Assembly (NCBI GenBank): GCA_964036045.1
Contig: OZ038388.1
Location: 505,501 to 569,500, forward strand
Direction: 5' to 3'
Source: Eutreptiella sp. 'Long Island Sound 2002'
Lineage: Eukaryota > Euglenozoa > Euglenophyceae > Eutreptiales > Eutreptiaceae
Length of the DNA stretch: 64,000 bases
Positions 12,060-51,670 of the stretch are shown piece after piece. The position numbers and the translations under genes are program-made. The notes below the pieces were generated by a model. That model saw nothing but the letters and a program-made list of their open reading frames with translations, did no database searches and was not told the DNA's origin. Each line of letters opens with the position of its first letter. Within the stretch, counting starts at the first letter, position 1.

Positions 12060-12071
12060 TGGTAGCAGAGG
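12060..12071 (+). promoter_or_regulatory. Primer-binding site of element A
   Basis: TGGTAGCAGAGG directly follows the 5' LTR. It resembles the initiator-Met tRNA PBS of many LTR elements (TGGTATCAGAGC). Almost the same site follows the LTRs of element B and of the outer gypsy element. Confidence 0.75.
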
Positions 12072-12279: not shown

Positions 12280-13174
12280 ATGGAGGATCTGGTCCCCATG
12301 TGTGAGCGTCGCTGCCGAAAGACATGCAACCTCCGCTTCGCCGCGGAGGACTCTGAGGAGGCCTGTCATTCAGGCAGCAGTGGAGGACGGGCCCGGCGCT
12401 ACCGGAAGCGCGGGTCACCCAAGTCCGCGGCAAGGGACGCCGGGGCTATGGATACGGACCCTAGCCCGGTTAGGCTGTGGGAATCAGAGGGGCACTCCGA
12501 GGGCTATCGGACAGCCTATGAGCAACCTTCGGAGTTCGGAGGAGACGGCCAGACCGCCCACAAGGGCGAACACGGCCCCAGAACCCAGCCTGGAGCATGA
12601 CGCCGAGGCGTTGGAGAGGCACGCCAGAGCCAGGACGGCGCCTGTGGCCCGGCACACGGAGCCACCACGGGATAGCATGGGCAACACACCCATGGCGGAG
12701 GAGTCCGAGGCGCCGGGAACCGCGGAACGCGCCGGACCAGGTGGAAGGCACGCTGAGTGCCACTGCGAACACGTGTCCTTCATCATGGGCAAGTACCCAA
12801 AGATGGGGATGGGCGCCATCGTGCATCGTCTCGACCGCCTGGACAACGCGAAGGACGGTCTAGAGGAGGACGTCGCCGGGATCCTGGATGACCTGTCGTC
12901 CGCGGAGAAAGACATGGAGGAGCTGCGAGCGGATCAGGCCCGGTACCGGGAGAATCTGGAGCTGGCCCTGCAGAAGCAGCAGCAAGTGGTGGACAGCCTC
13001 CTCCACTTAGTGGAGGACATGTTGGGACGCCTGAAAAGGCTAGAGGAGCTACAGCTCCTCGCCTCGGGTCCGGAGCTCCCGGCAAAGCCGGCAGCGGCAG
13101 AGCTGGTGGAGCGGGTTAAGACCCTCAGGAGCGCCATGGATAAACCCATGGGCGGCCCTGCAGAGGCACCATAG
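12280..13174 (+). pseudogene. Element A Gag, N-terminal coiled-coil part
   Basis: Start chosen at ATG 12280 because the same start and N-terminus (MED, then MCERxCRK) occur in element B at 40159. Frame 12280 runs to about 12540, where a 1-nt loss relative to B moves coding into the next frame (RPPTRANTA onward). A coiled coil follows (HRLDRLDNAKDGL to LGRLKRLEEL, about 12820-13050), probably for Gag multimerisation. It ends at TAG 13172-13174 where B has a Tyr codon. Coding then continues in the same frame. Confidence 0.75.
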
Positions 13175-16100: not shown

Positions 16101-18286
16101 TGAAGGAGTGGGGGCCCATGTATTGGCATGGCTCCCTGGATAACACCAGACGTACGGTGGAGAAGATCGTCGCGGATAGGGCGAAGGGGATCCTGGTCAT
16201 AACCGGCATAGGATCCACCCCATGTCCGCTGGAGGGTCTCAAGTCGACGCTGGACTCCATCACCCTGAACGAGATGGCATTCGGGCCAGAGGAGAAGTTG
16301 TTCATCGACGCCAAGGGTGTATCAATGCGCTCCCCGGGTCAAGCGTGGGGTACCAAGGCTTTCCTGGTGGATGGGGCGCACGCCCAGCCCACAGGTTATG
16401 AAGCATTCATCCGTAGGGTGGAGGCGGTACCCATGAAGGTCATGTTTGAGCCCAAGGAGGGGACGGATCAGCCTATTGATGGCATTGACGTCCTGTCCCA
16501 CGCCGAGATCGACGACGTCATCAACTACATGCGGATCGGGATGCACGACCGTGTGGCAGCCAAGAAGAGGCGGGCCATGGTCACATCTCCGCATTGGTGG
16601 GATGACAAGATGTTGGTCACCGGCAAGTACGAGAAGGACGAGTTCGTGGCGAGGGTCATGGATCAGATCACGGACCAATACGATGGTCCGGTTGGGTCGG
16701 ACCCACCAACATCGCATTTTCCAAGAATGGGTGCCAATAGCGACAGTCACCAGCCCGAGGCCGCAAATTTCCGAAGATTATCAGTGGGGAGAGCTCCCCA
16801 CGACGATGAAGACGGCATATCGGACGAGGAGAAGCCGGAATCGTACGCAGAAGACGCCTATACCGCAGTGCGGTCGGTTGTATCTATACCGAAGCAAGCG
16901 GCTGAAGAGGCTCAGGAGAACCCGAAGGTCGCCGAGCTGAAGGAGAGACTGATCAATGCCTATCCGCGGTTATTCAGTGGCGTCGCCAACAAGAACCCTC
17001 CAGATCGTGGGAGGTTTGGTACAGCGAAGATCAAGCTAAAGCCGCACCCGAAGATCTATCGTCATCGGGAGTACCAACTTCAGGGCGATCGGGCCGAGGC
17101 CATGAAGAAACTGTTGGCCGAGTTCATTGAGCGGGGATGGATCGAACCCTCCGACAGTGAGTGGGCCAGCCCAGCCTTCATCGTGCCAAAGAAGGAGAAG
17201 GGCGAGTGGAGGTTGGTGGTGGATTACAGGGGTTTGAACGAGCAAACCGAGCTCGACTCGTACTCGCTTCCCCTGATCGACTCCATCCTCCAAAAACAAC
17301 AGAAAAAGCGGATCTTCACGGTGTTGGACCTGGAACACGGTTATCACCAGATGCCGCTACACCCGGACTCCAGGCCCTGCACAGCGATGTCGACGCTGCT
17401 GGGGCCCATGCAGTGGAAAGTGGTGCCTATGGGCGCCAAGAATGGCAACGCCGCTTTCCAGCGCATGATAGAGGACCTACTCGGTCCTGTCCGGGACTGT
17501 GCCGATCCCTTCGTGGATGACATCATCATCGGGTCCGGCACGGAGAACATGACTGAGGACGAGCTCATCGACGCGCATGAGAAGGATCTGCGCCGAGTGC
17601 TCAGCGAGTTGGACAAGCACAACATGGTGTGCAAGCCCACCAAAGCCTCACTCTTCGTGAAGGAAGTGGAGTTCGCGGGTCACGTGGTTGGTCACGGGCA
17701 ACGTCGTCCCATGCCTGGGAAGCTGGCGTCCCTGCACCACTGGGAGAAGCCCCAGACCATCAGCGAACTCCGGTCCTTCATGGGGTTCAGCAATTACTAT
17801 TCGGGCTATGTCCGGATGTATGCAGAACTCTCGGGGCCGCTGCACAAGATGCTGCAGGTGGGCAAGTTCGATGGCCGGAAGGGGAGCAAGAAGAAGCTTG
17901 CCTGGACCCCTGAGGCTGAGGATGCGTTCAACCGCCTAAAGGAACGACTCCTTGGGCAGTTGGGGCTGTTCCTGGTGGACCCAGACAAGGGATTCGTGCT
18001 ACGGACAGACGCCTCGGACTATGCCGTGGGGGCAGTCCTCGAGCAAGTCCGGGACGACGGGACTCATGTTCCCGTGGCCTTTTGGAGCCGGATCCTGGCC
18101 GAGGGCCAACGCCGCACCTGGACCGCGAGGGAGAAGGAGACGTACGCCATTGTTTGTGCGCTCAGGAAGTGGTCGGGCCACATCGGATTGCAACTGGTGG
18201 TGGTTTGTACGGACCATCAGTCCTTGCAGAGCTGGCACAAGGAGCACGTCGACACCCCCTCAGGACCGGCGGCAAGGCGAGCCTGA
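13175..18286 (+). pseudogene. Element A Gag core, protease, RT and RNase H
   Basis: Open from 13175 to TGA 18284-18286. The order is: Gag core (about 13660-14440); a zinc-knuckle variant with CWVC and downstream His/Cys (about 14730-14785); a Gly/Lys-rich tail; aspartic protease with VDTGA (Asp codon at 15488); and a middle domain with DVFASGDAP (about 15955-16210) that resembles a degenerate Dam-type methyltransferase. RT follows (about 17040-17800) with LDLEHGYHQM and catalytic FVDD near 17512, then RNase H with RTDASDYAVG, REKETYA and CTDHQSL. The terminal TGA replaces the CGA seen in element B, so it is a single decay mutation. Gag and Pol share one frame, as in single-ORF chromoviruses. 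Confidence 0.9.
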
Positions 18287-20152
18287 TGGCATGAGACGTT
18301 CGCCAAGTTCGACCTCAGCGTCGTGTATGTCCCGGGGAAGGACAACACTGTGGCAGATTGCCTCAGTCGAAGGGCCTACCCCGCGGGCAAGGCGTGGATG
18401 GATATATCCAGCCATGGGGACGCCGAGGAGACCGAGGAGGCCAAGCGCATCATCGAGATGGAGAAGGCCATGGAGCAAGAAGGGGTCAAGTGCTTTGTGG
18501 TGATGGCAAAAAGTACGGACCTGGCCAAGTTCCGGGGCGCCGGCGTCCAAGCTATTCGAGAGGAAACCCTCGAGCAATGGATGGTGGCCTCTGTAGAGCT
18601 AGTCAGGTCGGTGCTCACAGAGGACGGGTCGGATGACTATGCGGCATCCGCGCACTGGAGCAAGTACTGGAACGCCGTGAGCGCCCCGTCGGACGACGAA
18701 TGGCCGGAGGGCTTGACCGAGGATGGGGACAAGTTGTTCCTCAAGGACAAGCTGCTGGTGCCAGAGAACCGAGTGGAGGAGCTCATTGACCATTGGCATA
18801 ACGCCCGGCTCATGCACCCTGGCCGAGACAAGATGCAGCAGGACCTGGAGTGGCGTTTCAAGTTCCCTCCGGGGTACTACGCCATCCTGGATAGGTACTG
18901 CAGCGACTGTGCCGTGTGTCGGGCCACGAAGAGCCCCAACCACTCCACGGCTGGCAACCTGGTGTACACGGCTATACCGGAAGCCCCTATGCGGTCTGTG
19001 GCCATGGATGTATTCGCCATGCCTGAGGTCACCGTGGACGGAGAGACCTACGACTGTGTCATCCTGGCGGTCGACAGGCACAGCGGGTATATCGTGGGTG
19101 TTCCTGGCAAGAAGTCCAAGAAGAAGGACAAGAAAGACAAGCATGGAGTGGGGCTGCAGGCCAAGACCGTCGCTAATGCCATGATCAGGCATTGGCTGAC
19201 GATTTTTGATGTCCCGGCTGTCATCTGCAGCGATCGGGGCAGTCGGTTTGTGGGGACGTGGTTCAAGACGATGTGCAAGCAAATGGGTATTCGGCACGCC
19301 AAGACCTTGGCGTACCACGACCGGTCGAATGGCCGAGCTGAGGTGGCCGGGCGGCAGATGTTCGAGAAGTTCCGCCAGCTGCACATCGACGAACCGGGCT
19401 GGAATTGGTATAATTCGCTATGGAGAGTACTCCAAGCGTATCACGACCTTCCGGGACCCACTGGACTATCGCCCCATCGCATCCTGTTCCTACGGGATCG
19501 AGTGTCACGCACTCTCCCGTGGTTGAACCATGGCAAAGTGGCCCGGGATGCGAATGCTATGATGGCTGAGGCGGACGACACGGCGGCCAAGGTGTGCAAG
19601 GCTCTTCAGGACGAGCATGACAAGAGGGCCAAGTACTTCAAGCAGGGAAAGGTCCAGAAGTATGCTCTCCAAGACACCGTGTGGGTGGAGCGGCACCACA
19701 AGGATGTCCTGTCCAGGCATCGGCAGGCGTCTTGGTATATGCCGGGGGTGATCGTGCGGAAGGTCGGGCAGGACGTGTACGCGGTTCGTGTGGGGGATAA
19801 CAAGATCCTGGACCGCGACCATACCCAGCTTCGTCCCCGAGCACCAGACCCCAGCGGACGTCCCGTCACCTTCGAGTTCCCGGCCGGCGATGTGGACTCG
19901 GACGACGAGGGTGAGGACGACGACTTCACCGCCGAGAGGATCCTGGCGGACAAGCCGGACCCGGGGACGCCGTGGGGGAGGCTTTTTAAAGTCCGTTGGA
20001 AGGGATTCGCCGCGTCCAGGGATTCGTGGGAGCCTCCGAGCAGTTTTGTGCCGAGGTACACAACGGTCTGGATGGACTACCTGAAGAAAAAGAATATTTC
20101 TTTGGATGTCAAGGACGTGTTGGTCCATTTGGTGGCTGCAGTAGCACCGTAA
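18287..20152 (+). pseudogene. Element A RNase H end, integrase and chromodomain
   Basis: Same frame as the preceding segment. It starts WHETFAKFDL and reaches DNTVADCLSR (last RNase H Asp). The integrase has an HHCC domain (HWHNARLMH, then CSDCAVC near 18897-18920) and a DDE core: VAMDVFAMPE, VICSDRGSRF and GRAEVAGR. A C-terminal chromodomain lies at about 19940-20085 (ERILADK, then FKVRWKGF, then SWEPPSSF), preceded by an acidic stretch. It ends at TAA 20150-20152. The domain order is that of chromoviruses. A start downstream of the TGA is unlikely to be used, since this is the tail of a polyprotein. Confidence 0.9.
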
Positions 20153-20529
20153 TGGATTCCCCTTGGCATTTTTGTTTGTTTCTGTGCTTGGGAGACGGGT
20201 GAGGGCGTTTATCAGGGGATTTTTCGGCCTTCATTGGCCATCTACCCCCTTCACTCGATCTCCACATATATATTTCATTGTGGTATACTTATTTAGGTCG
20301 ACTGACGACGTTTCTCTATCTTTGATCCCCTTGGTCCATGTTGTAGATCAAGAGGAGACCGGATATGGCGTAGGGCACCGATTATCAGTGTCCTCACCCC
20401 TCCATTGGGGCATGGGGGACGCCTACGACGTGTGTGGGGCCTCCATGTGTCCTTGGGACATGGGGGGGGGGGTTTGGAGCCCATTGGGGTCCTCCCGTCC
20501 TCTCTTCAATGACTTCCGGACAACGCTCT
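20153..20529 (+). other. 3' untranslated region of element A
   Basis: 377 bp between the Pol stop and the PPT. I see no gene or repeat in it. Confidence 0.6.
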
Positions 20530-20540
20530 GAGAAGGGGGG
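20530..20540 (+). promoter_or_regulatory. Polypurine tract of element A
   Basis: GAGAAGGGGGG lies immediately before the 3' LTR start TGAAGC. Confidence 0.88.
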
Positions 20541-22888
20541 TGAAGCTGGTGGGGACCCCCGTGGCCATCTTTGGGTCACTTGGGGTGTGTATCTATGTGC
20601 CGGCAAGCTGCCATTGGCTGATATCATACTCTCCCATCCACCTGATCCAACCCAATGTGATAGTGTGATAGATTTGGCCATTCCGGCTATGAGCGGCCAT
20701 ATTAAGTACTGAAACGCCGCCAGCGGAGATTTATATATCGGAATATCAGGAATCAACAGGGTTTTTTTATCATAATGTTTCCGTGATTTTTCAGCCTTCC
20801 GTTCTGATGGTCACTGTATCGGCGACTGTCAGTTGGCTCGCGATTTTGCGGTAACCGATTGGTTAACTGTTATTTCCAGATATTTTGGCGGAAACCCCGA
20901 TGAAGGGTCAGATTTCATCAGTAAATGGTTCGTTGCTTCCGCAATTTTCTAAATATGCACTCGAAATTTTAATCTGAATTTTTCGCGTTGTTGAAATCGG
21001 ATTTTCGACTTCGACATCGCCGCACTTGATTTGGTCTGCTCCGAGTGGTCATACTCCTTTCCGTATGCCCAAATCAGGTTTCCCTTATACTTGCCACCCA
21101 TTTGACTTGGAGATATAAGGGAAACATAAGTGAATCGTGGGACCACTTTGAAGGGCCATATCTACGCGCGAGTGTGAGGAAAGAGAATAAGAAAGGTTGC
21201 GTTGCAAGCGCCTTGGTCTCAACTTAATTTAGAAAGCAACAAATTAATTTAGGAAGCGTCAAACGCCTTTGGTGTGTACACATGCCCGGTATAGCAAGGG
21301 ATAATGGTCAAGAGGGTAGAAAGTGATATAAAACTCTTGGACCGTGCAACCGAATATTTTAATGCGACTTTCGAGTGTACCGCATGAGTGTTGGGGTTGC
21401 ATAGCAACTTTCCTTGGGTTCCTACGTATTTCTGACGTGAAGTTATGTCCATGGAGGGTCATGGCATATCATGGTGGGAGCCACTTTTGAGGGTATGTGT
21501 TATATGCATGGTATGTGCTTCGATATGCTCACGCCCATGTTATATATCTCCGTTTGTAGGAAGATATATGGAGTCATACGTGGCAAGGGCTTCGCCCATG
21601 TCCGAATGGTGAACTCCATAGCGCTAGACTAAGTCTACCGCTCATATAGTGCTTGTGGGAGGGCTTACGGAGCGACCCACAAGCGCCAATATCAATTTTC
21701 CCATCTTCATGGTGCGTGTTGGGAGGAGGTTCGAAGGTGTCCCTATGCGTCCATATGGGGATCCAAGTGGGGGGATTGTTTGCAAATGGTTCGAAGCAAT
21801 TGTGTTTTGAGTCATAGGTTGACACCATGGGTGAGCGAAGTTATATACTATTGTAATTATCTTGAATTTGGCATTATTTGCATGTTTTTGATCTCATTTC
21901 ATGCTCATTTTTGTGTTTTATGTGCTCAACTGGTCGGCTAACGGTAAAGTGCCTAGAGATCTGTGAACTATGGTATGTTGCTTATATGTTGGCATATGCT
22001 TCGGTGTTGCACCTCACCAGGCCTCACAACATTAGGTCTCAAACTCATGAGCTGACTTGTGAAGCATGTCATGTACATAACTGGAGGGGTTTCGGAGCCA
22101 ATGATGGGACATTCTTGGGCATCGACCTTTGGTCTATATCACCCTTGTATACTACTTTCCGGTTTGACACATGCATGGAGCATTTGAATATTTGCCGTAT
22201 GCATTTTTGAGTATATAATTGAATTTTGGGCATAATGGTGTGATTTGCCTGATTTTGCCATGTTGTGAGGTCATCATCATGGGGCAGTTCTCCAAGCCCA
22301 TTCGGCTCCAAGTCCAACCAAGGTTATGTCAGGGTAGGGCATGGTCCTGAGTGCCACTCTAGGCCATGACACGCCACCTCCCCTATTGGGCTAGGATATA
22401 TAGGCTTGGGAGTGAACACATTTTTGGGGTTTGTGTAGTGACTTTTGACTCATGGCATTTAGCCATCTAATTGGACTGGGTTCAGGACATCATGTTGGTG
22501 AGTCAAGGGAAGGTCTTGAGTCCAGGGAATGAGGAGTTTCTGGCTGTGATTGTGTACGTTTCCATCTTTCCCCAACTTTGCTTTATTTGTGTTCATATGC
22601 CAATTTCAGGGCTTTCCTCTTTGGTGCAATTCTTGTACATGCCCGCCACCGTGAGACGACCGGTGTGCTGAACGGAAGCCCGCAGCCCGTATTGGATTGT
22701 GAATTGGGCTATTGCTGTATTTGTGGGATCTGGTTGCTGTTCAGGGTTGAGGGAAGATTTTATTTTCTATATTTTTGGATTTTGGACCCTGGAATTTGAA
22801 GAATGCAATCGTTGATCCGGAGTAAATCAGCAGGGGTAACAGGCCGAAGGGGCACAGCGGGGGCCGGTCCTGGTAGGGACCTTCATTA
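20541..22888 (+). repeat. 3' LTR of element A
   Basis: 2348 bp matching 9694-12059. It ends CTTCATTA, followed by the target duplication CAAC at 22889-22892. Confidence 0.93.
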
Positions 22889-29050: not shown

Positions 29051-30344
29051 CGTCGCCCGGGTCCCGCTGCGGGGAAGCGCGCCGCGCCGCTTGCCGCCGC
29101 TCGTGGAAGAACGCCTTCAGCTGCTTGGCCACGGGGGCAGGCATAGTACTGTGAATGGTGTACGGCCCCCAAAAGAATGCACCTTTGCCCTCTGTGAACA
29201 GGGCCTCGACCGCGACGTTGCCATGTGCCACCGCGGCGTCCGCGATGCGCACGTTCTCCGGGTCGAGGCGGCGTGTGTCGCCGACGCGCGCTGCTCGGTG
29301 CCAAGCGAGTTGCAGTAGGTACCAGGCATCGCTCCCCCGGAGGTGGGCCTCAAGCACATCAAAGTCGGCGTAGCTCAGAGGGGCTGACTTCTGCGGGCGC
29401 AGTGCGGTGACCGGTGCCTTGCGTGTGGCATGGGACGTCGCCCCGCGGAAATAGGGGTCCGTCCGAATGTCGATGACGGCCCCGTTGTAGGACGGAACGT
29501 AGTACTGGAGGTCACGCAGGGGGGACACCACCGTGGACAGCGAGGACGAAATGGTGCTCCAGGCCCAGTGGCGCTTCCTTGCCTCCCTTAGAACCATCTC
29601 GACCACCGCCTTCGGTAGGGGCGTGTTGTTGAATTCGTCCGGCAGATGGCGGATACGGTGAATCCACCGTAGGTGGGACTGGCGTGTCTTCGGTGACATG
29701 CCGTACCACACAAGGGGATGCACATGGCGAGGACACTCCAGCGCCTTGCCCAGCGGGTGCCACCGCTTGGCATCTAGGACCCTCCAGGTGCCCGCGGGGG
29801 CGCTGTCCATGGATGCCAGGGTAGCGCGCGCCGGATCGTCGAGCTGGTTGCGCAGGGCATCGACCTCGGATGGATCTGCGGCCTCGTCGCCGTAGTCGCT
29901 CCCCACGTCATTGTCGTCCTCACACCCACAGCTCGAGGCGAACTCCGGGAGAGCCTGAACGCGGCCGAGGGTAAAGTAGGTGAAGTCAGGGTCCGGGAGT
30001 TGAAGGTAGGCTGGATCCTGAGACTCAAATTGACAGCACTTGTCGCACCAGCGCGCGAGGACCTCGGCCTCGCCCAGGGCCGACCGAGCAGGGGCCCGCA
30101 GAAGTAGCGCCACACACTGGACCCGATGGGCCCCACGGCGCGCCATGGAGAGGCGGATATGCGACCCCCGCGGCACGTCACAGAGCGCACGCTCCACTTC
30201 ATTGTGACGCATGGCTGGCACACCTTCCCGCGGGGTGAAAAGCACCGTGTCGGCGGAGGGTCCCGTAGGGCATGTGTCCCCCGTAGAAACAGCGTCCCAA
30301 GTCGGCTCCCCCTCGGGATCGAGGACGCGGAGAACGGCGTGCCG
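29051..30344 (-). pseudogene. Tyrosine recombinase, N-terminal and core part
   Basis: Reads in frame from the codon after TAG 30345-30347 to the gypsy insertion point. The catalytic core starts with the helical SAM-like segment (ALECPRHVHPLVWYGMS, then HLRWIHRIR). Box I Arg lies in LAWHRAARVGDTRRL. It breaks off after RRASPQRDPGD and continues at 4215. The enzyme would join the element's circular DNA to the chromosome. Because the TAG at 30345 is the only break between protease and recombinase, both were probably one polyprotein. The family call is firm; the nearest subfamily (VIPER/TATE) is by memory of motif order. Confidence 0.82.
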
Positions 30345-32741
30345 CTAAGCCAAAGATGCATGGACCCAGCAGGTGTGTACCCCCGCGATTTCCAAGGCTG
30401 GTAGGCGGCAACCCCGGCGCATGGTAGTAGCGCACCCACAGCGTTGATCCGTTCCCTTAGCGGTCTCGAGAATGGCGGGGTGATGCCAGTGGCAGAAACC
30501 TCCGCACACGTGATTGGGTGACCGGGGGTTCCAGCAGTCCCGGCATGTCCCGCGGGGCGCGACCCGAGCCGACCCGGGCCCAGGGGCGCCATCCCGGGGC
30601 GCGGCGGACAGCGTCGTACCCAGCGATGACGGTTCCGTCGCCGACGTCGGGGAGGTAGAGGCCGGCGCGTGAGTCGCTGCGGGCGGGGTCACCTCCCTGT
30701 GGATGACTGGGTCAGGGCAGGGGACAACCGCTCCGTGCCGAGTCCGCCTCATCTGCGACTGCTCCGCAGCGGACAGTGCAGGGGGAGGGCGACCAGGCCC
30801 CACCTCGGGCAGAGAAACCGACACAGGCGGGCACGTCGCTTCCGCAGAAGGCACCGGCACGGAAGGACCGGACGGATCGGGTACAGGGGACAGCTCCCGC
30901 GTAGTCGGGGCACAAGACGGCAATACGGACCAACGGAGACTCGGGCGATCCGCCGGCTCCACTCCTGCCCGCGAAAGCCCCAGATAGAAGTTGCGGGCCT
31001 CACGAATGTGGGCCCTAGTCAGGATCCCTGCCTTGGTGAGCGCGTAGATGGTCTGGAGGGTGTTATTCACGGCCTCGACCCAACACTCTGTCTCCTGCTG
31101 ACGTCGACAAGACGCGTACACAGCCTCGGGCTGAACGGGCAGGCAGCAGTGGCGACGGAGAAAGGAGGCAAAGACGCCAGCCCAGCGCAACGTGGCTTCG
31201 CCGTACGCGGCCCTCCGAGCATCAAACCGCGCGCCCGTCGCGCCCGCCCCGTGCCAACTGTCCCGCACCACAATGGCTCCGCCCGCGTAGGCGGTGGCCA
31301 CGAAGTGCTGCTCCGGTGCGATGTGCGCCACCGTAGCGACCTTGCCGGTAAGTGTGCCCGGGTCCCACCGGGTGCCAGCGGGCAGGGTACAGCATCCCTC
31401 CCGCCAGGTGAGGGCCCTGCAGGGCAGATAACTCCATCCTGTAGCCGGTGGGTCACGAAAGACGGCGTCCAGGATTGGGGCATCCACGGCGGTGTCGGTT
31501 AAGTATGTGTGCCGTTGAAAGGCACGGTAGGCCATGTGCAGCTTATCCCCCTGCGCGGCGGCTCGGGCCCTCACTGAGGCCTCAATCTGGGCTGCACAGT
31601 CACGGAAAAGGCAGAGTAGAGGGCGGTCGCAGCGACAACCGCCTCGGGACGCCCAGAAAACCAAATTGGCGGTGGCTGACCCGAGCTTGGCAAGGCTGAC
31701 AGTCGCCTGCTCCCCCCCACCAGGATCGCAGTGATGGTAGAACTCGCGGACGAGGGCAATAGTCGCCCCGCTCAGGCCGGCGGACGCGGCCCTCGAGAGG
31801 AACCACGACAGGGGCACGGGCGTCTGCACAACGAACTGCTCGGTCAGACTCGCCGGGTCGAAAGTGGCTGCCGCGGCTCGCTGAGCGTCGGCGTCGTGCA
31901 CCGAGCGTCGCGCGCGCGTGCGATGGGCCACAGGTGGAGCCTCCTCAGGTACGTCGAGGGAATAGTGCACCGGGCCGAGCCCCAAGGCCCCCTCAGGTCC
32001 GTCTGCAGGGGGCGACAGGGGAATCGCAGCGGACGTCGGGGCCCCACCGCGCACGACGTTGTCAAAGCCGATCATGGAGGCAAAGTCGGGACACGCGGCG
32101 GCGAGGAGCGCCGTGAGATGCTGCGTCAAGGGGCGGCACTCCGTCAACAGCGCCCGCCACGCATGAGGGGAGACGTAGCGTGGGGGCGTCAACCGGGCCT
32201 GTGGCAAGGGCCTGGCGCCGTACGCGGCCCAGGCGCCCACGAAAAAGACATGGAGGCCGCACTCGGCGGACCCCCGGAACTGCTTGGCGTGCGCCACAAT
32301 CACCAGCTGTGCGAGGCCGAGATCGCGCGTGAAATGGGAGGTGATGTCCCTGGCGGTGGCCGAATGCCGGGCGGAGTCGTAGACGACGGTGGTCAGGCGC
32401 CCAGCAACCCGGCGGACAACCGCCGTAGTCCAATGATACCGAACGTGCACTGGCATAATAGCACACGAGTGCCTCTCCAAAATCGAGAGGAGCCGCGCGA
32501 CCAGGTCACGTGCCAGGTCCCGGCGGATCGACGGACACTCCTCCGTGCGTACCCGGTAGAACAAAGCGGCGGGCACGTAGTTGGGGAAGGCGGGGGCCAT
32601 CCGCAAATGCAAATCCATGTCACTCAACTCGGCATCGAGGGACCCGCCCCGTAGGTCGCCAGGGCAAGGCCTGCCGCACCCGGCCGAAGCTGGCCCCCTG
32701 TTTTGATTCACCTCCTCTGGAGAGCCAAGAGGACCGCTCAA
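30345..32741 (-). CDS. Tandem Ulp1/C48-like cysteine protease protein of YR element
   Basis: About 798 codons with no early ATG in frame; it is entered by -1 frameshift from Gag at 32741-32747. Domain 1 (about residues 90-175) has the Ulp1-type set H103 (YHW), D122 (VYDSA), Q154 and C161 in KQFRGSAECGLHV. Domain 2 (about 430-570) repeats it with H479, D494 (VVRDSWHG), Q548/Q549 and C553 in RRQQETECW. A Pro/Ser-rich linker follows, then a Cys/His-rich tail (about 725-795: CRDCW, VCGGFCHWHH, CGCATTMRRGC, HTCWVH) that may bind zinc. C48 enzymes cleave ubiquitin-like proteins after Gly-Gly. Likely roles are polyprotein maturation or removal of host modifiers. A TAG at 30345 separates it from the recombinase. 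Confidence 0.8.
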   Translation of the reverse strand: MSGPLGSPEEVNQNRGPASAGCGRPCPGDLRGGSLDAELSDMDLHLRMAPAFPNYVPAALFYRVRTEECPSIRRDLARDLVARLLSILERHSCAIMPVHVRYHWTTAVVRRVAGRLTTVVYDSARHSATARDITSHFTRDLGLAQLVIVAHAKQFRGSAECGLHVFFVGAWAAYGARPLPQARLTPPRYVSPHAWRALLTECRPLTQHLTALLAAACPDFASMIGFDNVVRGGAPTSAAIPLSPPADGPEGALGLGPVHYSLDVPEEAPPVAHRTRARRSVHDADAQRAAAATFDPASLTEQFVVQTPVPLSWFLSRAASAGLSGATIALVREFYHHCDPGGGEQATVSLAKLGSATANLVFWASRGGCRCDRPLLCLFRDCAAQIEASVRARAAAQGDKLHMAYRAFQRHTYLTDTAVDAPILDAVFRDPPATGWSYLPCRALTWREGCCTLPAGTRWDPGTLTGKVATVAHIAPEQHFVATAYAGGAIVVRDSWHGAGATGARFDARRAAYGEATLRWAGVFASFLRRHCCLPVQPEAVYASCRRQQETECWVEAVNNTLQTIYALTKAGILTRAHIREARNFYLGLSRAGVEPADRPSLRWSVLPSCAPTTRELSPVPDPSGPSVPVPSAEATCPPVSVSLPEVGPGRPPPALSAAEQSQMRRTRHGAVVPCPDPVIHREVTPPAATHAPASTSPTSATEPSSLGTTLSAAPRDGAPGPGSARVAPRGTCRDCWNPRSPNHVCGGFCHWHHPAILETAKGTDQRCGCATTMRRGCRLPALEIAGVHTCWVHASLA

Positions 32742-32747
32742 AAACCC
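32738..32747 (-). promoter_or_regulatory. Candidate -1 ribosomal frameshift site
   Basis: In the Gag frame the last codons are ATG GGT TTT TGA. The heptamer G GGT TTT (32741-32747) fits X XXY YYZ and abuts the UGA. Slipping back one base enters exactly the frame of the protease ORF, which lacks its own ATG start. I have not identified a downstream pseudoknot. Confidence 0.6.
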
Positions 32748-33900
32748 ATCTGGGTCGAGGGATCGGTGGGCGCGCCATCGTCAGTCACGCCCCGGGGCAC
32801 AAGGGCGGTAGCGTCGTCCGCACTGCCACCAACAGGACCCCCGCGAGGCTGGCGGCGCCGGGCCGGGAACTCAGGCGCTTGCCCAGGCTGTTGGTCCCGA
32901 CGGGCCTTCCCGCTCCGATCGGTGGGCCCAGGGGGGCCACCAGGCTTGGGTTGCGGCACAGCTGCGGGCTTGGAGGCAAGCTGGACGGCCTTACGGAGTC
33001 CATCGATCTCCGCACGCTGCTGCTTCACCTGGGCCTGCAGATTGGCAACAGCGTCACTAGCGGGGCCCATATCGACTGCATAGCGCCCCCTGGGGTCCGG
33101 CCCTTCAACGAAGAAATATGGCTCGCCACCCTGGACCGGCGGACGGACGGAGACCTGAAAGGATGCCCCCAAAGACACCGCGCGCTTGTAGGCCATCGGA
33201 AGCCGCATGCCGCCGCCGCCGCTGATGCGCCCCTCTGCACTTTCTTGAACATGGTCCAGAATATCCTGGTTCAACCGGACGAACTCCTCACAGACGGGCG
33301 GCAAGAGGGGAAAAGGACACGCAAGGATCTTCGGCAGGTTCCGAGCCTTGAACTAGGGATGTCGATCCTTGTGGTCCTCCTCCATCATTTCGGTAACTAC
33401 GACGTTGTGGGCCCAAATGCGTGACGGCAGGTCCCTGTAGCGGAGCAGAATCGCGGCGTAGACCTGTGGGCTATCGGCCCAGACCAGGTGGGAGTAAAGG
33501 AGGAGGTCCTTGATGACCAACTCACCCTTCTGAGCCCACCATATGATCTGGGTCCTCGCCTCGCCGGCCGAGTAAGTATTGATGATCCCCCCCCGCCTGG
33601 GGTGCCCCGTGGGATAACGCGTATTGCCGTAGAGGTGCTCGAAGACCTCAATGTAAGACTTCTTGTGCGCCGTGTCGAGATCCGCCTCCGTCTCGAGGCG
33701 TCGTCGCTCATCGGCCGTGCGCTGGCGTTCCTCCTCACGGCGCTCGCTCTCCAACTCGAACTGCCTTTCGAGGGCCTGTGCCAGCTCCAAAGTGGACCGG
33801 CCCGAAGCGGGGTCGTCCCGGCCGGCCTCTCTGAGATCGTACTGCCGCGCCAGCGTCTCGATGCGCTTGTTCTTGAATTCCTCGCTCCCGGGCCCGGCAC
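32738..33900 (-). pseudogene. Gag body of YR element
   Basis: Frame 33353 carries a charged coiled coil ([18 protein letters not shown]), then [16 protein letters not shown] and [21 protein letters not shown], and a conserved-looking helical segment up to a TAG at 33353-33355. Translation in the same frame continues beyond it (ARNLPKI, then CEEFVRLNQDILDHVQ) to a second coiled coil (ANLQAQVKQQRAEIDGLRKAV) and a Pro/Arg-rich end at the frameshift site. Position upstream of the enzymes, coiled coils and basic tail argue for Gag. I do not recognise the capsid fold. A further frameshift near 33885-33900 separates it from the ubiquitin segment. Confidence 0.6.
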
Positions 33901-33972
33901 AGATGCAGAGATGGCTGCAGCGGCCGCGTCAACCGCGGGGTCCTGCCCCAACGTGGACCAGTCATTGAGCAC

Positions 33973-34200
33973 GCCACCACGCAGCCGCAGGACCAAGTCC
34001 AGCGTGGATTCCCTCTTAACGTTGTAGTCGGCGAGAGTACGGCGGGCCTCCAACTGTTTGCCCGCATACAGCAGCCTCTGCGTACCAGGGGGAACGCGCA
34101 CCTTGGCCTGGACCCGCAGCATCACGGTCGCCACTGAGTCGGCGGACCTGACATCCAGGGTCACCGTCGTCCCAGACAAAGTCGTCACGAAGATCTGCAT
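33973..34200 (-). CDS. Ubiquitin domain embedded in YR-element Gag region
   Basis: Exactly 76 codons beginning ATG ([10 protein letters not shown]) and ending LRLRGG, the full length of ubiquitin with its C-terminal Gly-Gly, fused to a downstream extension ([10 protein letters not shown]). By hand comparison about 60% of positions equal canonical ubiquitin, including AGKQLE, RTLADYN, ESTL and LVLRLRGG. K33 and K48 are kept. K6, K11, K27 and K29 are replaced, and position 63 is Arg with Lys at 62. The hydrophobic patch is L8, L44, V70. The reading is open through at least 120 residues upstream and 190 downstream in this frame. The flanking Gag pieces lie in another frame, so two compensating shifts (about 34250 and 33893) bracket it. 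A host deubiquitinase or the element's own C48 domains could cut after Gly76. Confidence 0.9.
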
Positions 34201-34244
34201 ACGGGCCCCAGGCGAACGCGCACTGGGAGAGTCCTGCTCGGAGT

Positions 34245-34640
34245 CCGCAGGCCCCCAGTGGTCCGTACCATCCGCCATATTGGGCCTGTCCACCAGCGTA
34301 CTGCAGCCAGGCCCCCAGTGGTCCGTACCCTCCGTTATATTGGACCGGCCCATCAAAGTACTGCAGCCAGGCCCCCAGTGGTTCGTACCCTCCGTTATAT
34401 TGGACCGGCCCATCGAAATACTGCAGCCAGGCCCCCAGTGGTCCGTACCTCCCGTGATATTGCACCTGCCCACCGAAGTACAGCAGCCAGGACCCCAGAG
34501 GCCCGTACTCTCCACTGAAGTAGCGCAGCAGGTCGTGGAGGACACACGCGGCACACAGCACCACAGCCGGCAGCCCTCGACAGCCAAAAGGCCAGAGGGC
34601 CGCCCAGCTCTGGCCCCAGGAGCCGATGCCTTGCACCCTT
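34245..34640 (-). pseudogene. Gag N-terminal region with aromatic repeats
   Basis: This frame reads [20 protein letters not shown] and then the aromatic repeats. It lies between the small LTR element (ending 34641) and the ubiquitin segment. A frame change near 34250 joins it to the ubiquitin frame. Tyr/Gly-rich repeats of this kind can drive self-association, which suits a Gag assembly function. That role is inference, and no family is recognised. Confidence 0.5.
34250..34520 (-). repeat. Five 60-bp coding repeats, 20-residue units
   Basis: Five tandem 60-bp units translate (minus strand) to [18 protein letters not shown]-like units rich in Tyr, Gly and Trp. Base changes mostly keep the motif, and the spacing is exact. 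Confidence 0.85.
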
Positions 34641-35542
34641 TGGGGGGAGGGCAACCTCCAAGCTTCCCTTGGCATGCACGACCCCAATCCCATGAAATCC
34701 AAGACTTCCTCTTGAAATTCTTACTGATCTTCCATCAGTCTGGGTTTCTCCAAAGAATTCTGTGATCCTTGCCCCAGCCGTGACACAATCTGGCGTTCTA
34801 GGCAAAGAGATAATGGTATATGTAGACAATACAAACATGTAGACAAGTAATATGTATATGTAACACTTCTATACAATAAAATAGCTTAGAAGAGTGGACG
34901 AAATGTTGGCGGCGGCGTCGCCGCCATCAGAAAAACTGACGGCTACGCTTCGTCGCTATCAGGATCTCCACTGAGATCCTGCCCAAACTGGGCCAAACAG
35001 TGGTTCTTGGGCAAAAAACAGTGAAATATAGTGCTTTTTGAGCCAAAAACACTCATTTCGCGTGTCTCCCCCAAACGCGTCGCGTAGCCGACACGACACG
35101 TTTCTGTCCCAATTCAAACTATATATGAGGAGGGCCACTGCTGGGCCACACCATGGGCGCCTGGCTGATTCCTGGGATCGCCTCAGGACTTTCTAAAGAA
35201 ATCGTGAACGTGACTGATCTCGCAAAAATTGACCTTCGCGGAACGCCGCGAAAAAGGTCACGTTATATTCCTATATTTCTAAAAACGATAAATCAATAAT
35301 AAAATTGATTAAGATCTTCAGAAATCGAGAAATAAAACTTCGATCTGGGGCTGCGTTGCGCAGGCGACGAAGGTCGGCGCCAGCCCAAAAATGACGAAAA
35401 ATGACGATTTCTGGGGTATTTTACAGAAATTCCACAGAAATCGGGATGCCATAAGACTGGAAATCAGCCCAGGAAAATTCCTGATGAGAAGAGTGCCACA
35501 GGCTGGGCAGCGGGTATGGGTGAGGCACCCCATACCGCTTCA
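34641..35542 (-). repeat. 3' LTR of small LTR element
   Basis: 902 bp, equal in length to the other copy. It has AT-rich stretches near 34850-34880 and 35280-35330. No gene is seen. Confidence 0.88.
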
Positions 35543-35553
35543 CCCCCCTCCTT
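35543..35553 (-). promoter_or_regulatory. Polypurine tract of small LTR element
   Basis: AAGGAGGGGGG on the minus strand, directly before the 3' LTR start TGAAGC. Confidence 0.8.
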
Positions 35554-35906
35554 AGAAGCCTTGCCTATATCCAAAGGAAGACAAGACCAAGGAGGCGCTC
35601 TGACCCCTGCACTGCCCTGGTTTCAAAACTGATTCAGCAGGACAGTGGGGGAGTTGGGGCTTTGTAAGTAATTTACATGCCACTTACATGTAGGTCTGCA
35701 ATAATCTTTGATATATTCATAGGGCAATTGCCCCCCAGGCGACCACACTGGTCCCTGGCACTCCCCTTAGCCTCTGGTGACCAAACCCCGGGCACTGCAG
35801 GTCCTTCCGACCTGACTGATGGCGCTGAGGTGCACATATTGGCCCTTTTTCTCCATGGGCATGGAAATATAATAATTCAATAAATTCAAATGCGGAAAAA
35901 AAATTA

Positions 35907-36118
35907 TTTAGGGTCAAACCCAAGGCAACGAATTCCTCGTGCCTGAATTTAGGGTCATTTCCTACCCAAGGCGACGAATTATTCGTTCCTGTTTAGGGTC
36001 GATTACCAACCCAAGGCGACGAATTAACGCGCCTGCATTTAGGGTCATTTCCTACCCAAGGCGACCCCCGCCTGTTTAGGGCTGTTACCAGCCCAAGGCG
36101 ACGAATTAACGCGCCTGC
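35907..36118. repeat. Tandem repeat with TTTAGGG cores
   Basis: Five imperfect units of about 36-46 bp, each with TTTAGGG and most with ACCCAAGGCGACGAATTA-like segments, lie in the internal region of the small LTR element. The rest of that internal region (35554-35906, 36119-36377) shows no convincing gene. Confidence 0.8.
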
Positions 36119-36377
36119 AATCTCGTAGAGGTTGTGGTGGTTCGCAGATGGCATCGTCGTCGCTGCAGTTGTCGCCCAGAGCTGAGGTAGACTTGGGGGC
36201 TCCATAGGGTCTTCCACCCATCGTAGGACCATCAAGGAATTCCTCCCTCATCATGTTGATGCCCTTGACCTTGACCACTGCAGAGTAGCAGACGCTACTA
36301 CCAGGACCTGCTGTGGCGCGACGTCGTCGTTGTCCGCGAACGTGGCCTTGGCGTCGGCAGAATTCTTTTGAGTAGGT

Positions 36378-37279
36378 TGGGGGGAGGGCAACCTCCAAGC
36401 TTCCCTTGGCATGCACGACCCCAATCCCATGAAATCCAAGACTTCCTCTTGAAACTCTCACTGATCTTCCATCAGTCTGGGTTCCTCCAAAGAATTCTGT
36501 GATCCTTGCCTCAGCCGTGTTACAATCTGGCGTCCTAGGCAAAGAGATGATGATATATGTAGACAATACACACATGTAGACAAGTAATATGTATATGTAA
36601 CACTTCTATACTATGAAATAGCTTAGAAGAGTGGACGAAATGTTGGCGGCGGCGTTGCCGCCATCAGAAAAACTGACGGCTACGCTTCGTCGCCATCAGG
36701 ATCTCCACTGAGATCCTGCCCAAACTGGGCCAAACACTGGTTTTTGGGCGAAAAACAGTGAAATATAGTGATTTTTGAGCCAAAAACACTCATTTCGCGT
36801 GTCTCCCCCAAACGCGTCACGTAGCCGACACGACGCGTTTCTGTCCCAATTCAAACTATATAAGAAGAGGGCCACTGTTGGGCCACACCATGGGCGCCTG
36901 GCTGATTCCTGGGATCGCCTCAGAATTTTTTTAAAAAATCGTGAACGTCACTGATCTCGCAAAAATTGACCTTCGCGGAACGCCGCGAAAAAGGTCACGT
37001 TATATTCCTATATTTCTAAAAACGATAAATCGATAATAAAATTGATTAAAATCTTCAGAAATCGAGAAATAAAACTTCAATCTGGGGCTGCGTTGCGCAG
37101 GCGACGAAGGTCGGCGCCAGCCCAAAAATGACGAAAAATGACGATTTCTGGGGTATTTTACAGAAATTCCACAGAAATCGGGATGCCATAAGGCTGGGAA
37201 TCAGCCCAGGAAAATTCCTGATGAGAAGAGCGCCACAGGCTGGGCAGCGGGTATGGGTGAGGCACCCCATACCGCTTCA
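36378..37279 (-). repeat. 5' LTR of small LTR element
   Basis: 902-bp partner of 34641-35542. The sequence after its minus-strand end (ACCTACTCAAAAG) is not a recognisable tRNA-complementary PBS. Confidence 0.88.
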
Positions 37280-37685
37280 GTGGTCGGACAAGGTGCACGC
37301 AGCGGTCGTCAGGACCAACAATTTCTGGTCCACCTGGTACTGCGGCGTGTTCAGCATCATGGGCTGGATGGTCTGCAGCATGTGGTAGATGGTCTGCAGC
37401 ACTCTCTGCATCAGGACCCATGTTTCGCCGCCATACTGTGCAGTATCCAGACAGCCTGCTGGCTCAGTGTCAGGCCGAAAGACGGCGGCGCCAAAGACTG
37501 GAGTTCGTGCCGCGAGGCCCTGCAGTGGCTGACCCCCCATCGGTGGTCGAGACCGGGGCCAGCGTGTTGTTGCTGTCGATGTACATCAGGCCCAGTAGTG
37601 GGCAGCGGAGCGCCGCGCGTATGGCGAAGCGGTCGACGTCACGGAGCTCCATCTGGTCCTGCGGGGCAATTGTGCTCCGCAACAT
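37280..37685 (-). pseudogene. First coding segment of YR element (Gag N-terminus)
   Basis: An ATG at 37685, three bases inside the 5' repeat boundary, opens about 65 residues (MLRSTIAPQDQMELRDVDRF). A frame change near 37500 leads to a second stretch (DTEPAGCLDTAQYGGETW, then VLQTIYHMLQTIQPMM) that reaches the small LTR element. Placement right after A1 and the change to clean coding suggest the start of the Gag protein. No domain is recognised. The link across the LTR element to the aromatic repeats is an inference. Confidence 0.45.
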
Positions 37686-37687
37686 CA

Positions 37688-37804
37688 CAACAAAAACAAC
37701 AATGGGTAGCTCAGGCTACAATGGAGAAAGGGAAAAGACCCTTCACCTGAGCGTGAAGGAACAACAGAGGTGGGTGTGCAAGCTATAATAACCTATAAGC
37801 TGTT
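37688..37804 (-). repeat. Split direct repeat A1 (5' end of YR element)
   Basis: 117 bp matching A2 at 1773-1889 with four differences. Its outer end (plus strand) is GCTGTT, sharing the GTT core with the B copies. Beyond it the sequence changes to an unrelated poly-G stretch. Confidence 0.82.
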
Positions 37805-38400
37805 CCTAGGCATGGGGGGGGGGGCGGGTAACGTACAACACAGCAAAGCAAAGCAAAACCATCTAAACCAAAGCAGTCTGAAGAGTGCACTGTGCGTTTG
37901 TCTGTCTTGCGGGACTGAGTTTCCTGGTTCACATTGAGATGGGCCAACACCCCCCCCTCCGGCCGATAGGGGGATAAAATCACCAAAAATGGGGGATAAA
38001 ACCACCCCAAAGGGGTGATAAAACCCCCCCAAATGACCAAATGGGGAGATAAAACAACCCCTGTGGGGGATAAACCCACCCCTGCAAAAGGGGGGAGAAA
38101 ACCAGCCGCAGGTGGCAGAAAACCACCCCAGGGGTAAGAAATGGCCAAAAAAGGGGTGGGGGGTCGTTTCATTCCCTATTTTGGGGTGGTCTTATACCCG
38201 AGGACCACCCAGGTAGGGGCGTGTGTGGTGTGTGTATGCACACTCTGTGTGTTAGTACCGTGGGTGGGGCACTGGGCATACCAGTGCCGCGCCGGATTTG
38301 CCCTTCGGCCATGTTGGCCGTCACCGGGACGCATCCTGTAGGGACGTCCTCGGCGCACAGGGCTTTTAGGGGGAGCCTTAAGCGCACTGCAGAAAAGAAC
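37805..38400. repeat. Second palindromic ATAAAACCACCCC array and flanks
   Basis: After a poly-G run (about 37814-37825), the segment at 37840-37910 repeats that at 1310-1375. From about 37960 to 38210 there are about ten units with GGGGATAAAACCACCCC-like cores. Positions 38211-38654 hold no recognisable gene; a weak hairpin lies near 38437-38452 (GTGTCCAAGGACAC). Confidence 0.7.
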
Positions 38401-48862: not shown

Positions 48863-48877
48863 GCAAGGCTTGCAATC
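48863..48877 (+). repeat. Right target-site duplication of LINE
   Basis: GCAAGGCTTGCAATC, partner of 40196-40210. Confidence 0.88.
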
Positions 48878-51670
48878 TCCGCTCTGCTGCGGAGGAGTTG
48901 GAAGAGACTGGCAGCAACGGCAGAGCCCGGCATTACCGGAAGCGCGGGTCCCCAAAACCCGCGGGGGAAGCCAGAGCGATGGAGACGGATCCCAGCCCGG
49001 TCAGGCTGTGGTCAGGTGCAGATTCCGAGGGGCATTCCGATGGCTATCGGACTGCTTTCCCTTCGGAGTCGGAGGAGATGTCCAGACCGCCCACAAGGGC
49101 GAACACGGCCGCAGAACCCAGCCTGGAGCATGACGCCGAGGCGTTGGAGAGGCCTACCAGAGCCAGAACGGCGCCTGTGGCCCGGCACACGGAGCCAACG
49201 CGGGATAACATGGGCGACAAACCCATGGCGGAGGAGTCCGAGGGGCCGGGAACCCTGGGATGCGCCGGATCTGGTGGAAAGCACGTTGAGTGCCACTGCG
49301 AGCACGTATCCTTCCTCATCGGCAAGTACCCAAAGATGGGGATGGACGCCATCGTGCAGCACCTCGACCGCCTGGACAACCAGAAGGACGGCCTGAAGGA
49401 AGACATCGCGGGGATCCTGGATGACCAGTCAGAAGCGGAGAGAGACATGGCGGAGCTGTGAGCGGAGCAGGAGCGGTACCGGGAGAAGCTGGAGATGGCC
49501 CTGCAGAAGCAGCAGCGAGTGGTGGACAGCCTCCTCCACCTGGTGGAGGACATGGCGGGACGCCTTAAAAGGCTAGAGGAGTTACAACCCCTCGCCTCGG
49601 GTCCGGAGCTCCCGGCAAGGCCGGCAACGGCAGAGCTGGTGGAGCGGGTTAAGACCCTCAGGAGCACCATGGATAAACCCATGGGCGGCCCTGCAGAGGC
49701 ACCCTACGCACCTCCGCGTGTTGACCCGGGTGCGCTGCCGTTTGTTCCCATGTTCAGCGAATCCATAATGCTCGGGGAGCATACGGCACCGGCTGGGTCC
49801 ATTCGGGAAGAGCACGCAACCACGGACCCGAGGAGCCTGACGGTACAGATGTCCCATGCCGCCCAGGATCCACCGACTGCTATGACTGCCCATGCACTTT
49901 ATGCAGAAGAGGGGATCCAGACCATGCAGGGGCGAACCGTGGGAAGGGCCGACGGACATGGTCGAGGCCATCCAGGCGGAAACCTGTGGGTGAAGGACCC
50001 CACTACAGGGATATGGACAGCCGGTGGAGCAAGTCCTTCCCGCATCCCAAACCCCATGGGTTCAGGCCCAACTGGACCGCACTCGATGGAGGAGAGGGAT
50101 GTACGGGGAGTGTACTCATACCCCCCATCCACAGGTGGTATCCGTCTCGGTGGAGTGGTGGCTGCGGACGTCGGAGACGCCATCAGGATTGACGACCTCA
50201 GGGGAATCAAAATCCCCTACTACGATGGCAACGCCTCCAACCTGGATGACTTCATCCTGGATTGGGAGGACTTCGCCGAGGAGGTCGTCGGCGAGAGGAA
50301 GGGAGCGCCAAGGGACAAGTGGGTATGTCGGACATCCCCACACAGGCTGGCGCAGGACCTGAGGGAGGAGCTCGGGGATCAGATCCGCGAGGGATTGATG
50401 CAGACAGAGCAGGCCTGCCTCCAGTGGCTGGAGGACGAGGAGCGAGTGGACGCCTGCAACCAGAAGTTGGAGGATTTGTGGTCCATTCTGCTGCCGCTGG
50501 AGCGCGGGGAATTGAGGGTCCGAGAATGGAATCGGTACATCCGCAGGTACCGAAGAAGCTTCAAGCTGGTGGAGGACTGGAATGAGGCCAGCGAGATCCG
50601 ACACCTGCTGAAGGACGTCCTCCCCGACCACTGGAAGAGAAGGGTGGAGGATGAGGAGAAGAAGAGAGCAAAGAAGTGCGTGGCCGTACGAGTCATGGCA
50701 TCGGATGACACCCACGCCGGAATAATGGAGTTTGTTCAGCCGAAACCTCGGCGAGCCCAGCCGAATGTTGGGGTTGAAGAACGCCGTCTATGTGGAGGTA
50801 TTCGGCGACACCATGGGGCAAAGGCTGATGCGCCTCAACAACGCGGAGTGGAGGCGCGGAGAGCCGCTGAGGATGCAGGTCATCTTCGCCCGCATGAGCC
50901 TGGACGAGATCGTGAAGTACATCACGGTGGAGCTGAAGCTCAACGCCAAGAACGAGGCCCACGTGCAGGATCGACAGGGCCAAGGACATCGAGGTCATCT
51001 GGAAGATCGCCAACACCGAGAGGTCAAGGGGGACACGGTCGGCACCGCGGAGGAAGGGAGTGGAAGCGGCCAAGATCTCTGGACCGCGACCACCCGAGAG
51101 GATCATGAAGAAGCCCACTTTCTCGCGCTCAAAGCGCACAATATGAAGGAGCATGGGCAGGACAGGTCCAGGTGGAACCGCCTGGACCCAAGGTCCAACA
51201 AGGGCCGCAAGGAACCGCGGAGGATCGGGAACACGCCGCTCTCGTTCCGCGAGTACAGATCACAGCACGACGGTTGCTGGGTCTGCTACGGCAAGGGGAA
51301 CACCCATGCACATGACCACCGGCATTGCAAGGTATATGAGGAAGACAAGAAGACCTACTTCGCCGCCTATCCCGACAAGAAGCCCAAGGAGCAACGAATT
51401 GCCGATCGGAAGGCAAAGGGCAGAGACGCTGGAAAAGGCCAAGGAAAGGGCCAAGGGAAAAGCGGAAAAAAAGGCTATGGTGGAGGACCCGGCCCAGACC
51501 GACGCGTGAGGTCGATCGAGGAGGTTGCTGAGGACATGTTGAGGACGTTGGAGGAACTCAAAGCCCAGCAACGTGGTGGACAAGGTCTGGGCGGATCGCA
51601 GCAGGAAGGAACCTGCGGCAGGCCACGCCTAGAGGAGCCCCCACGGGAGTGGGACCCCGCAGGCCTCTCC
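48878..51670 (+). pseudogene. Element B Gag
   Basis: Continues Gag after the LINE. The frame of 48898 runs through the coiled coil with a TGA at 49459-49461 (after MAEL), then the Gag core (about 50190-50730). A frameshift near 50735 moves to the frame carrying RNLGEPSRMLGLKNAVY and the zinc-knuckle variant CWVCYGKG with later His and Cys (about 51280-51330). The Gly/Lys-rich tail follows. A second frameshift near 51670 leads to the protease frame. By comparison with element A these are decay mutations. Confidence 0.85.

Follow-up and report, generated by a model that had tools for sequence, protein, structure and literature searches.

The 64-kb window (64,000 nucleotides of Eutreptiella DNA, the whole stretch that was analysed) raises the question of whether a ubiquitin has become part of a retroelement and, if so, what it does there. 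The ubiquitin reading frame lies at positions 33973–34200 on the minus strand, spans 228 bases, or exactly 76 codons, and runs from MQIFV to LRLRGG. The coordinates given in the initial annotation were correct, but the reading is that of the minus strand; the plus strand contains a stop here. The description of a complete 76-residue ubiquitin with more protein behind it was borne out by the minus-strand translation, whose frame continues past the terminal GG into Gag; the frame is broken soon afterwards in the window copy and open in 42 other copies. A profile comparison, which the annotation had suggested as a check of identity, gave a match to the full length of Pfam PF00240 (E=1.4e-19, 70 bits, profile positions 1–72 of 72), and solved ubiquitins align with residues 1–76. 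Both matches are far beyond chance. NCBIfam profiles yielded nothing beyond a weak Rad23 match to this ubiquitin, and an Rfam scan of the window gave no match at gathering scores. The window ubiquitin shares 45 of 76 residues (59%) with human-type ubiquitin, in line with the roughly 60% counted by hand before, and 48 of 76 with the ubiquitin of the host genome (G000). Alignment also upheld the loss of K6, K11, K27, K29 and K63; K48 is present, and so is K33, which had gone unmentioned.

The window holds a dead copy of a tyrosine-recombinase retrotransposon with a ubiquitin-Gag gene. Window self-comparison and frame reading revealed a minus-strand element, with its 5′ end at 37804 and its 3′ end at 1553, that is split by two later insertions (34639–37279 and 4216–29050). 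The termini were taken from three complete copies elsewhere in the genome (L014–L016) and were matched in the window 20/20 at both 37804 and 1553. The L014 copy measures 8,776 bp and carries split direct repeats in the order A1 ... B1 A2 ... B2, of which A1 and A2 (116 bp) and B1 and B2 (100 bp) are each 100% identical. By self-comparison and by reference to L014, the corresponding minus-strand repeats in the window are A1 at the 5′ end (37689–37804, 116 bp), B1 (1888–1986), A2 (1774–1889) and B2 at the 3′ end (1553–1651); A1 and A2 of the window are 96.6% identical.

Following A1 on the minus strand, a leader (34201–37688), which evolves about neutrally (omega near 1), extends to the ubiquitin and contains a 60-bp minisatellite (34248–34513) located by repeat finding. 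The leader is interrupted by the insertion at 34639–37279 (no strand assigned), which was delimited by self-comparison and the complete copies and is bounded by 903-bp direct repeats (96%); a clear target duplication is absent from it. Gag (minus strand, 32738–33972) follows straight after the ubiquitin GG, was identified from its homologues P0002, P0003 and P0006, and has a frameshift and one stop in the window copy. The ubiquitin had been described as lying among Gag coding repeats, but these repeats are the minisatellite, which lies upstream of the ubiquitin, evolves almost neutrally and is neither Gag nor shown to be coding. A reading of the 60-bp repeats as Gag is unsupported, since their omega is near 1 and the Gag relatives P0004, P0005, P0007 and P0008 have no counterpart of them.

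The remaining genes, also on the minus strand, lie in ORF2, which begins with a first Ulp1/C48-type protease domain (32202–32618) and continues with a second C48-like stretch (31026–31538), a tyrosine recombinase in two parts (29052–29711 and 4000–4215, approximate borders) and a reverse transcriptase with RNase H (RT–RNase H; 2175–3620, approximate borders). The two recombinase parts are separated by an LTR retrotransposon (minus strand, 4216–29050) that was inserted later in the gene, so that the ORF enters the insertion; the second part has two stops in the window copy. The LTR retrotransposon is recognizable by LTRs of 787 bp (97.3% identical), a 5-bp target duplication (CGTCG) and an RVT_1 match (E=1.8e-17), plus a weak RVP match below the cut-off. 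The complete copies L014, L015 and L016 each possess two long frames, of 779 codons (ubiquitin, then Gag) and of 1,983 codons, counted stop to stop; the latter is the counterpart of P0009, a protein of 1,899 aa, and of P0010 and P0011, which are related to it.

Several of the ORF2 domains were assigned by eye. Peptidase_C48 (PF02902) matched the first domain of P0010 (25.3 bits) and P0011 (25.1 bits) above the cut-off of 20.7, each time partially (profile positions 71–120 and 79–120 of 217, respectively), while P0009, which belongs to the clade of the window copy, gave no C48 match, and a PDB profile search of this domain also returned no match. P0009–P0011 all share His62, Asp81, Gln113 and Cys120 (P0009 numbering), which we take, by eye and from the motifs of the C48 family, to be the catalytic set. 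A similar set in the second C48-like stretch (His438, Asp453, Gln507 and Cys512, P0009 numbering), likewise recognized by eye, is invariant in the same three proteins; this stretch had no profile match, and PDB profiles gave nothing useful for it. The recombinase matched the integrase profile phrog_1 in P0010 (E=7.3e-07), not in P0009; useful matches were not found in Pfam or PDB, and the R, HxxR, H and Y residues picked out by eye are invariant across P0009–P0011. RVT_1 matched one of the two sequences scanned (P0009; E=0.0058, 16.8 bits, below the cut-off of 29.6), no PDB profile match was found for the RT region, and RNase H in P0009 was recognized by eye only. Reverse transcriptases usually carry a YxDD motif, and the RT of the element reads VDN, by eye, at this position. 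Pfam detected no aspartyl protease in P0009, P0010, P0002 or P0004; the LTR elements of the window gave weak aspartyl-protease matches below the cut-offs.

The tyrosine recombinase and the split direct terminal repeats in place of LTRs are traits of the DIRS order, whose elements, to our knowledge, lack target-site duplications. Inspection by eye of the three complete copies found no duplication at L015 and L016, and L014, which sits in a satellite, was ambiguous. The flanks of L014 and L015 contain the same type of tandem satellite, with a unit of about 195 bp. Relatives of the element were not found in IMG/VR scans, the spliced-leader 21-mer (with up to 3 mismatches), a relic of which would have pointed to a dinoflagellate, was not found in the window, and its exact 13-base core was not found in 64 loci.

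Whether the ubiquitin belongs to this element was examined in the 2.28-Gb genome G000, where all copy counts are lower bounds. The ubiquitin search scored the best 150 of 410 candidates and listed 150 matches, which we grouped by hand: 46 are at least 96% identical to the ubiquitin of the window (two with an internal stop), 5 are diverged but of the element type, and the remaining 99 (63% identity) belong to the host and lie almost exclusively in arrays on C15. Host polyubiquitin arrays extend across 54 kb at C15:29319392-29373374. The Gag search gave at least 69 matches, of which 42 are at least 99% identical over all 408 residues. Comparison of coordinates by hand placed a ubiquitin directly upstream of Gag, in the same open frame, in 42/42 of these listed copies, with open frames of 679–2393 codons and zero stops, as the expectation of a ubiquitin conserved in frame with Gag in other copies had required. 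Among the young copies, 33 of 37 were used to compare the ubiquitin (the other 4 were out of register or had over 30 mismatches), and its amino acid sequence is identical in 29 of the 33. Eleven of the 37 are identical over 2,307 bases, which suggests that the family spread recently. Two pairs of copies have the same direction, C13:15607442/15615764 (8.3 kb apart, straddling a 200-N gap) and C14:8245379/8252428 (7.0 kb apart); these could reflect tandem insertion or an assembly effect.

Older copies were represented by L013 and by six further Gag copies (L059–L064). A ubiquitin, or a damaged one, precedes Gag in L060, L063 and L064 with the junction GG/VL, and L013 also has a ubiquitin. L061 and L062 lack both the ubiquitin and the start of Gag, their matches beginning at about Gag residues 101 and 117, and three short Gag matches (C7:95390474, C19:37908283 and C26:12628902) stop short of the Gag start. 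The exception is L059, in which Gag is readable from residue 10 and no ubiquitin was found in the preceding 363 bases. Copies lacking ubiquitin had been named in the initial annotation as evidence against its proposal; all 42 listed young copies have one, but this old copy does not.

A chance landing of a host retropseudogene of ubiquitin in this one copy, the other objection raised beforehand, is vanishingly improbable, and nothing beyond the single window speaks for it: the ubiquitin occurs at 96% identity or more in at least 46 places, 42 of them before a full-length Gag of at least 99% identity, and all seven copies compared have six derived residues in common relative to host ubiquitin. 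The in-frame position in at least 42 copies and the GG/VL junction shared by the old ones argue against such an event and place the ubiquitin inside the retroelement as a part belonging to it, as had been claimed. A chance or pseudogene insertion was excluded on the basis of the 42 young Gag copies and the old copies with ubiquitin.

The six derived residues also bear on the origin of the fusion. S9, V34, V36, L44, Y45 and A52 differ from host ubiquitin in 7/7 copies compared, which speaks for one capture. The three host units read depart from human-type ubiquitin in having V13, S19, N20, D24 and A57, and the element ubiquitin has V13 in 7/7, S19 in 6/7 and A57 in 6/7 of the copies compared; the sharing of V13, S19 and A57 with the host rather than the human type points to a donor of the host's kind. 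In a Gag tree, the relatives from other sources (P0004, P0005, P0007 and P0008) form one group (100% support), and ubiquitin-bearing copies occupy both main branches of the remainder, namely the recent clade and L013, L060 and L063. Ubiquitin is absent from these four relatives, of which the proteins alone were seen; three of the four have an N-terminus, with a Met about 3–20 residues ahead of the point that corresponds to the post-GG position. A single capture before the two branches split appears to be the simplest reading of this tree, although the lack of ubiquitin in the outside relatives could reflect loss. The element thus probably acquired a host-type ubiquitin, which became joined in front of Gag and was retained. 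Protein searches, which scored about 8000 candidates within length limits, revealed the same arrangement in P0002, P0003 and P0006, where ubiquitin and Gag share one frame. A search with the leader and ubiquitin of P0002 returned 38 proteins, and among the 14 inspected these three were the only ubiquitin-Gag fusions; P0029 has leader-type repeats without ubiquitin or Gag, and the other inspected proteins are polyubiquitins or different fusions.

A dN/dS ratio below 1 had been proposed as a test of whether the ubiquitin is kept by selection. This prediction held between the old lineages but not within the recent clade, which is near neutral. We aligned 12 sequences and report 11 pairs; the comparison of old and recent ubiquitins comprised seven sequences, leaving out L012 and L064 (ubiquitin partly replaced or missing) and L001 and L002 (near-duplicates of L014). 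Between old copies, the ubiquitin is under strong purifying selection, with omega values of 0.20 (L013–L060), 0.12 (L013–L063) and 0.20 (L060–L063) and one-sided Fisher p values of 1.8e-06 to 4.3e-12 for these three pairs of three copies. Old copies are broken, so omega should drift towards 1, and the measured values were low nonetheless. The young copy L014 compared with L013 gave 0.17 for ubiquitin and 0.21 for Gag.

In the recent clade, by comparison, the ubiquitin evolves almost neutrally. Omega ranged from 0.40 to 1.99 (L009–L010) in six pairs, one of which was significant (L014–L011, 0.40, p=0.023); it was 0.74 vs 0.15 for Gag in L014–L010 and 0.57 vs 0.13 for the first 125 Gag codons in L014–L009. 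The ratio of replacement to silent changes in the recent-clade ubiquitin differed from that of Gag (p=0.011) and of the first 125 Gag codons (p=0.041), and did not differ from that of the leader (p=0.60 and 0.19). The near neutrality of the recent clade, together with the lack of ubiquitin in L059, would suit a neutral passenger, kept since Gag translation happens to start there. We consider this very doubtful, given the omega of 0.12–0.20 among three old lineages, the ubiquitin-Gag frame open in 42/42 young copies listed and the GG present in 11/11 sequences surveyed.

In the old copy L013, the leader is riddled with indels and the ubiquitin has none. Leader and repeats gave omega values of 0.85–1.23 for L014 against L010 and L009, the minisatellite 0.85 (L014–L010) and 1.22 (L014–L009); across the 11 pairs, the leader ranged from 0.83 to 1.86 and the repeats from 0.31 to 1.93, some of these values resting on few changes or poor alignment. 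We read the constrained protein as beginning at the ubiquitin Met. In the recent clade, however, the leader is open for 285 codons in the ubiquitin frame, the indels that L009 and L010 have inside this frame are multiples of three, and 10 of 12 upstream ATGs in L014–L016 are in the ubiquitin frame, so that the ubiquitin may be internal rather than N-terminal. An unconstrained in-frame extension from the leader may be translated too in this clade.

The residues kept give an indication of the function. In 11 sequences, the window copy among them, Gly75-Gly76, Arg74 and Arg42 are conserved in 11/11 and Arg72 in 10/11; position 44 is Leu in 11/11, and L8 is present in 9/11. No lysine is invariant: K33 is found in 10/11, K48 in 7 of the 10 readable, K63 in 3/11 and K6 in 2/11. 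The initial annotation had pointed to K48 as kept, which is true of the window copy, but its retention is clade-specific. Three old copies carry Ser or Arg at position 48, and on this ground K48 was excluded as a preserved function. A function requiring one chain type seems unlikely from these patterns, and one requiring the fold, the tail and the surface patch likely. The surface patch of ubiquitin is the part that deubiquitinases read. The conservation of the tail and the surface hydrophobics, with no lysine invariant, is more readily explained by a cleavable fusion than by a tag for building chains.

We favour, as probable, a model in which a captured ubiquitin fused before Gag serves as a cleavable fusion partner: an ancestor of the element would have taken up a host-type ubiquitin, which was joined directly ahead of Gag, the protein would be translated as ubiquitin-Gag, and cleavage would occur after the last glycine of ubiquitin by host deubiquitinases and/or the Ulp1-type (C48) protease of the element. 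Each molecule would yield a single Gag that always starts with the same residue (Val), together with a single variant ubiquitin, and the benefit might lie in Gag yield, folding or the timing of assembly. What was observed directly is the fusion and its conservation, the open frame of the young copies, the near neutrality of the leader and the C48 match in two relatives. A narrower version, which we hold to be unlikely, assigns the cut at GG to the element's own Ulp1-type protease, with protease and substrate tag having moved together and the freed, lysine-poor ubiquitin also acting on the host.

The main rival to a cleaved fusion is that the ubiquitin stays on Gag as a sorting signal and recruits ESCRT-type ubiquitin-binding machinery to the particles. 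In PMC2958808, a C-terminal ubiquitin on retroviral Gag promotes release in a manner dependent on L8 and I44, and the element copies retain L8 in most cases and a Leu at position 44 throughout. However, such a use would not need Gly75-Gly76, which were deleted in that study (PMC2958808), yet GG is kept here in every sequence surveyed, which argues against an uncut ESCRT signal; moreover, the ubiquitin precedes Gag instead of standing at its C-terminus, the patch residue His68 is lost in the recent clade (replaced by Asp or Val), and no envelope gene is obvious, the complete copies having only one further forward frame above 250 codons, which overlaps ORF2. We regard the sorting signal as unlikely. 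The freed variant ubiquitin could instead be the payload, capping or poisoning chains by its scarcity of lysines and thereby shielding the proteins of the element or blocking host defence. This reading has in its favour that the recent clade has lost 5 of 7 lysines with the activation tail intact, and that one ubiquitin per Gag would be produced; but old copies lose K48, and three of them retain K63 and two K6, so that no constant chain defect has been preserved, and a little variant amid the many polyubiquitin units of the host may do little. It is, in our estimate, quite improbable.

The cleavable fusion has counterparts in several known systems. The ubiquitin-ribosomal protein fusions of the cell have an N-terminal ubiquitin that is cut off after GG; the element shares this layout, but those fusions are host genes with a conserved ubiquitin. 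In cytopathogenic pestiviruses, as described in PMC8310069, ubiquitin is a polyprotein processing signal at which cellular hydrolases cut before the next protein; there it is an occasional insertion in single RNA-virus strains, whereas here it has long been inherited within a retroelement family.

Among mobile elements, VIPER and other tyrosine-recombinase retrotransposons with split direct repeats (Ngaro, PAT) likewise have Gag, a recombinase, RT–RNase H and repeats in the order A1 ... B1 A2 B2. The gene order and repeats of the element are the ones described for VIPER in PMC6681497, which likens the VIPER repeats to those of Ngaro and PAT. Unlike these elements, the present one has a ubiquitin before Gag, a C48 protease before the recombinase, and the recombinase and RT–RNase H in one ORF. 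The dinoflagellate SymbioDIRS-Dnmt3 resembles it in its A-coding-B-A-B repeats, divergent RT and captured host domain, and occurs with two orders of recombinase and Pol (PMC5890265, main text); its captured domain is a DNA methyltransferase, not ubiquitin, a word that is absent from that main text. Ginger1, Mutator and Helitron elements similarly carry a ubiquitin/SUMO-type protease (Ulp1 or OTU), but they are DNA transposons whose enzymes remove ubiquitin or SUMO, and none of the passages compared in PMC2836005 (12 of 16) names a ubiquitin gene in an element. Among the papers listed by full-text literature searches, mostly outside subscription, no retroelement encoding a ubiquitin of its own came up. 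Several mobile elements are known for enzymes that strip off ubiquitin or SUMO (PMC2836005); this one has ubiquitin itself, in its structural protein, and ties the ubiquitin pathway to retroelement assembly. Its retention in dozens of young open copies is a natural test of whether the fusion benefits Gag, and its drift from an otherwise almost frozen sequence offers natural variation that separates the roles of the tail and patch from those of the lysines.

Some further observations concern the surroundings of the element and other ubiquitin fusions. The region 9694–22888 within the LTR retrotransposon looks nested, with direct repeats at 9694–12059 and 20541–22888 (95% identical); 12319–18896, which is 89% identical at the DNA level to 48865–55426 of the window, encodes an RT, an RNase H and the zinc-binding domain of an integrase, and a chromodomain match there falls slightly below the cut-off. 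Short similar stretches that contain a tandem repeat (unit about 22 bp) lie beyond both ends of the tyrosine-recombinase element (1160–1373 and 37849–38112) and are perhaps remnants of another element at the target. The protein collections also contain other ubiquitin fusions. Ubiquitin is found within a larger protein in P0035, P0036, P0037, P0039 and P0040, where the tail reads LRLRGD or LRLRGH and the ubiquitin is therefore probably not cut out; P0036, whose label begins 'Polare', and P0037 contain PF13598. In P0038, P0041 and P0042 (sources ena, jgi and lgn), ubiquitin lies N-terminal to what Pfam labels as the large subunit of ribonucleotide reductase, LRLRGG being followed by the enzyme.
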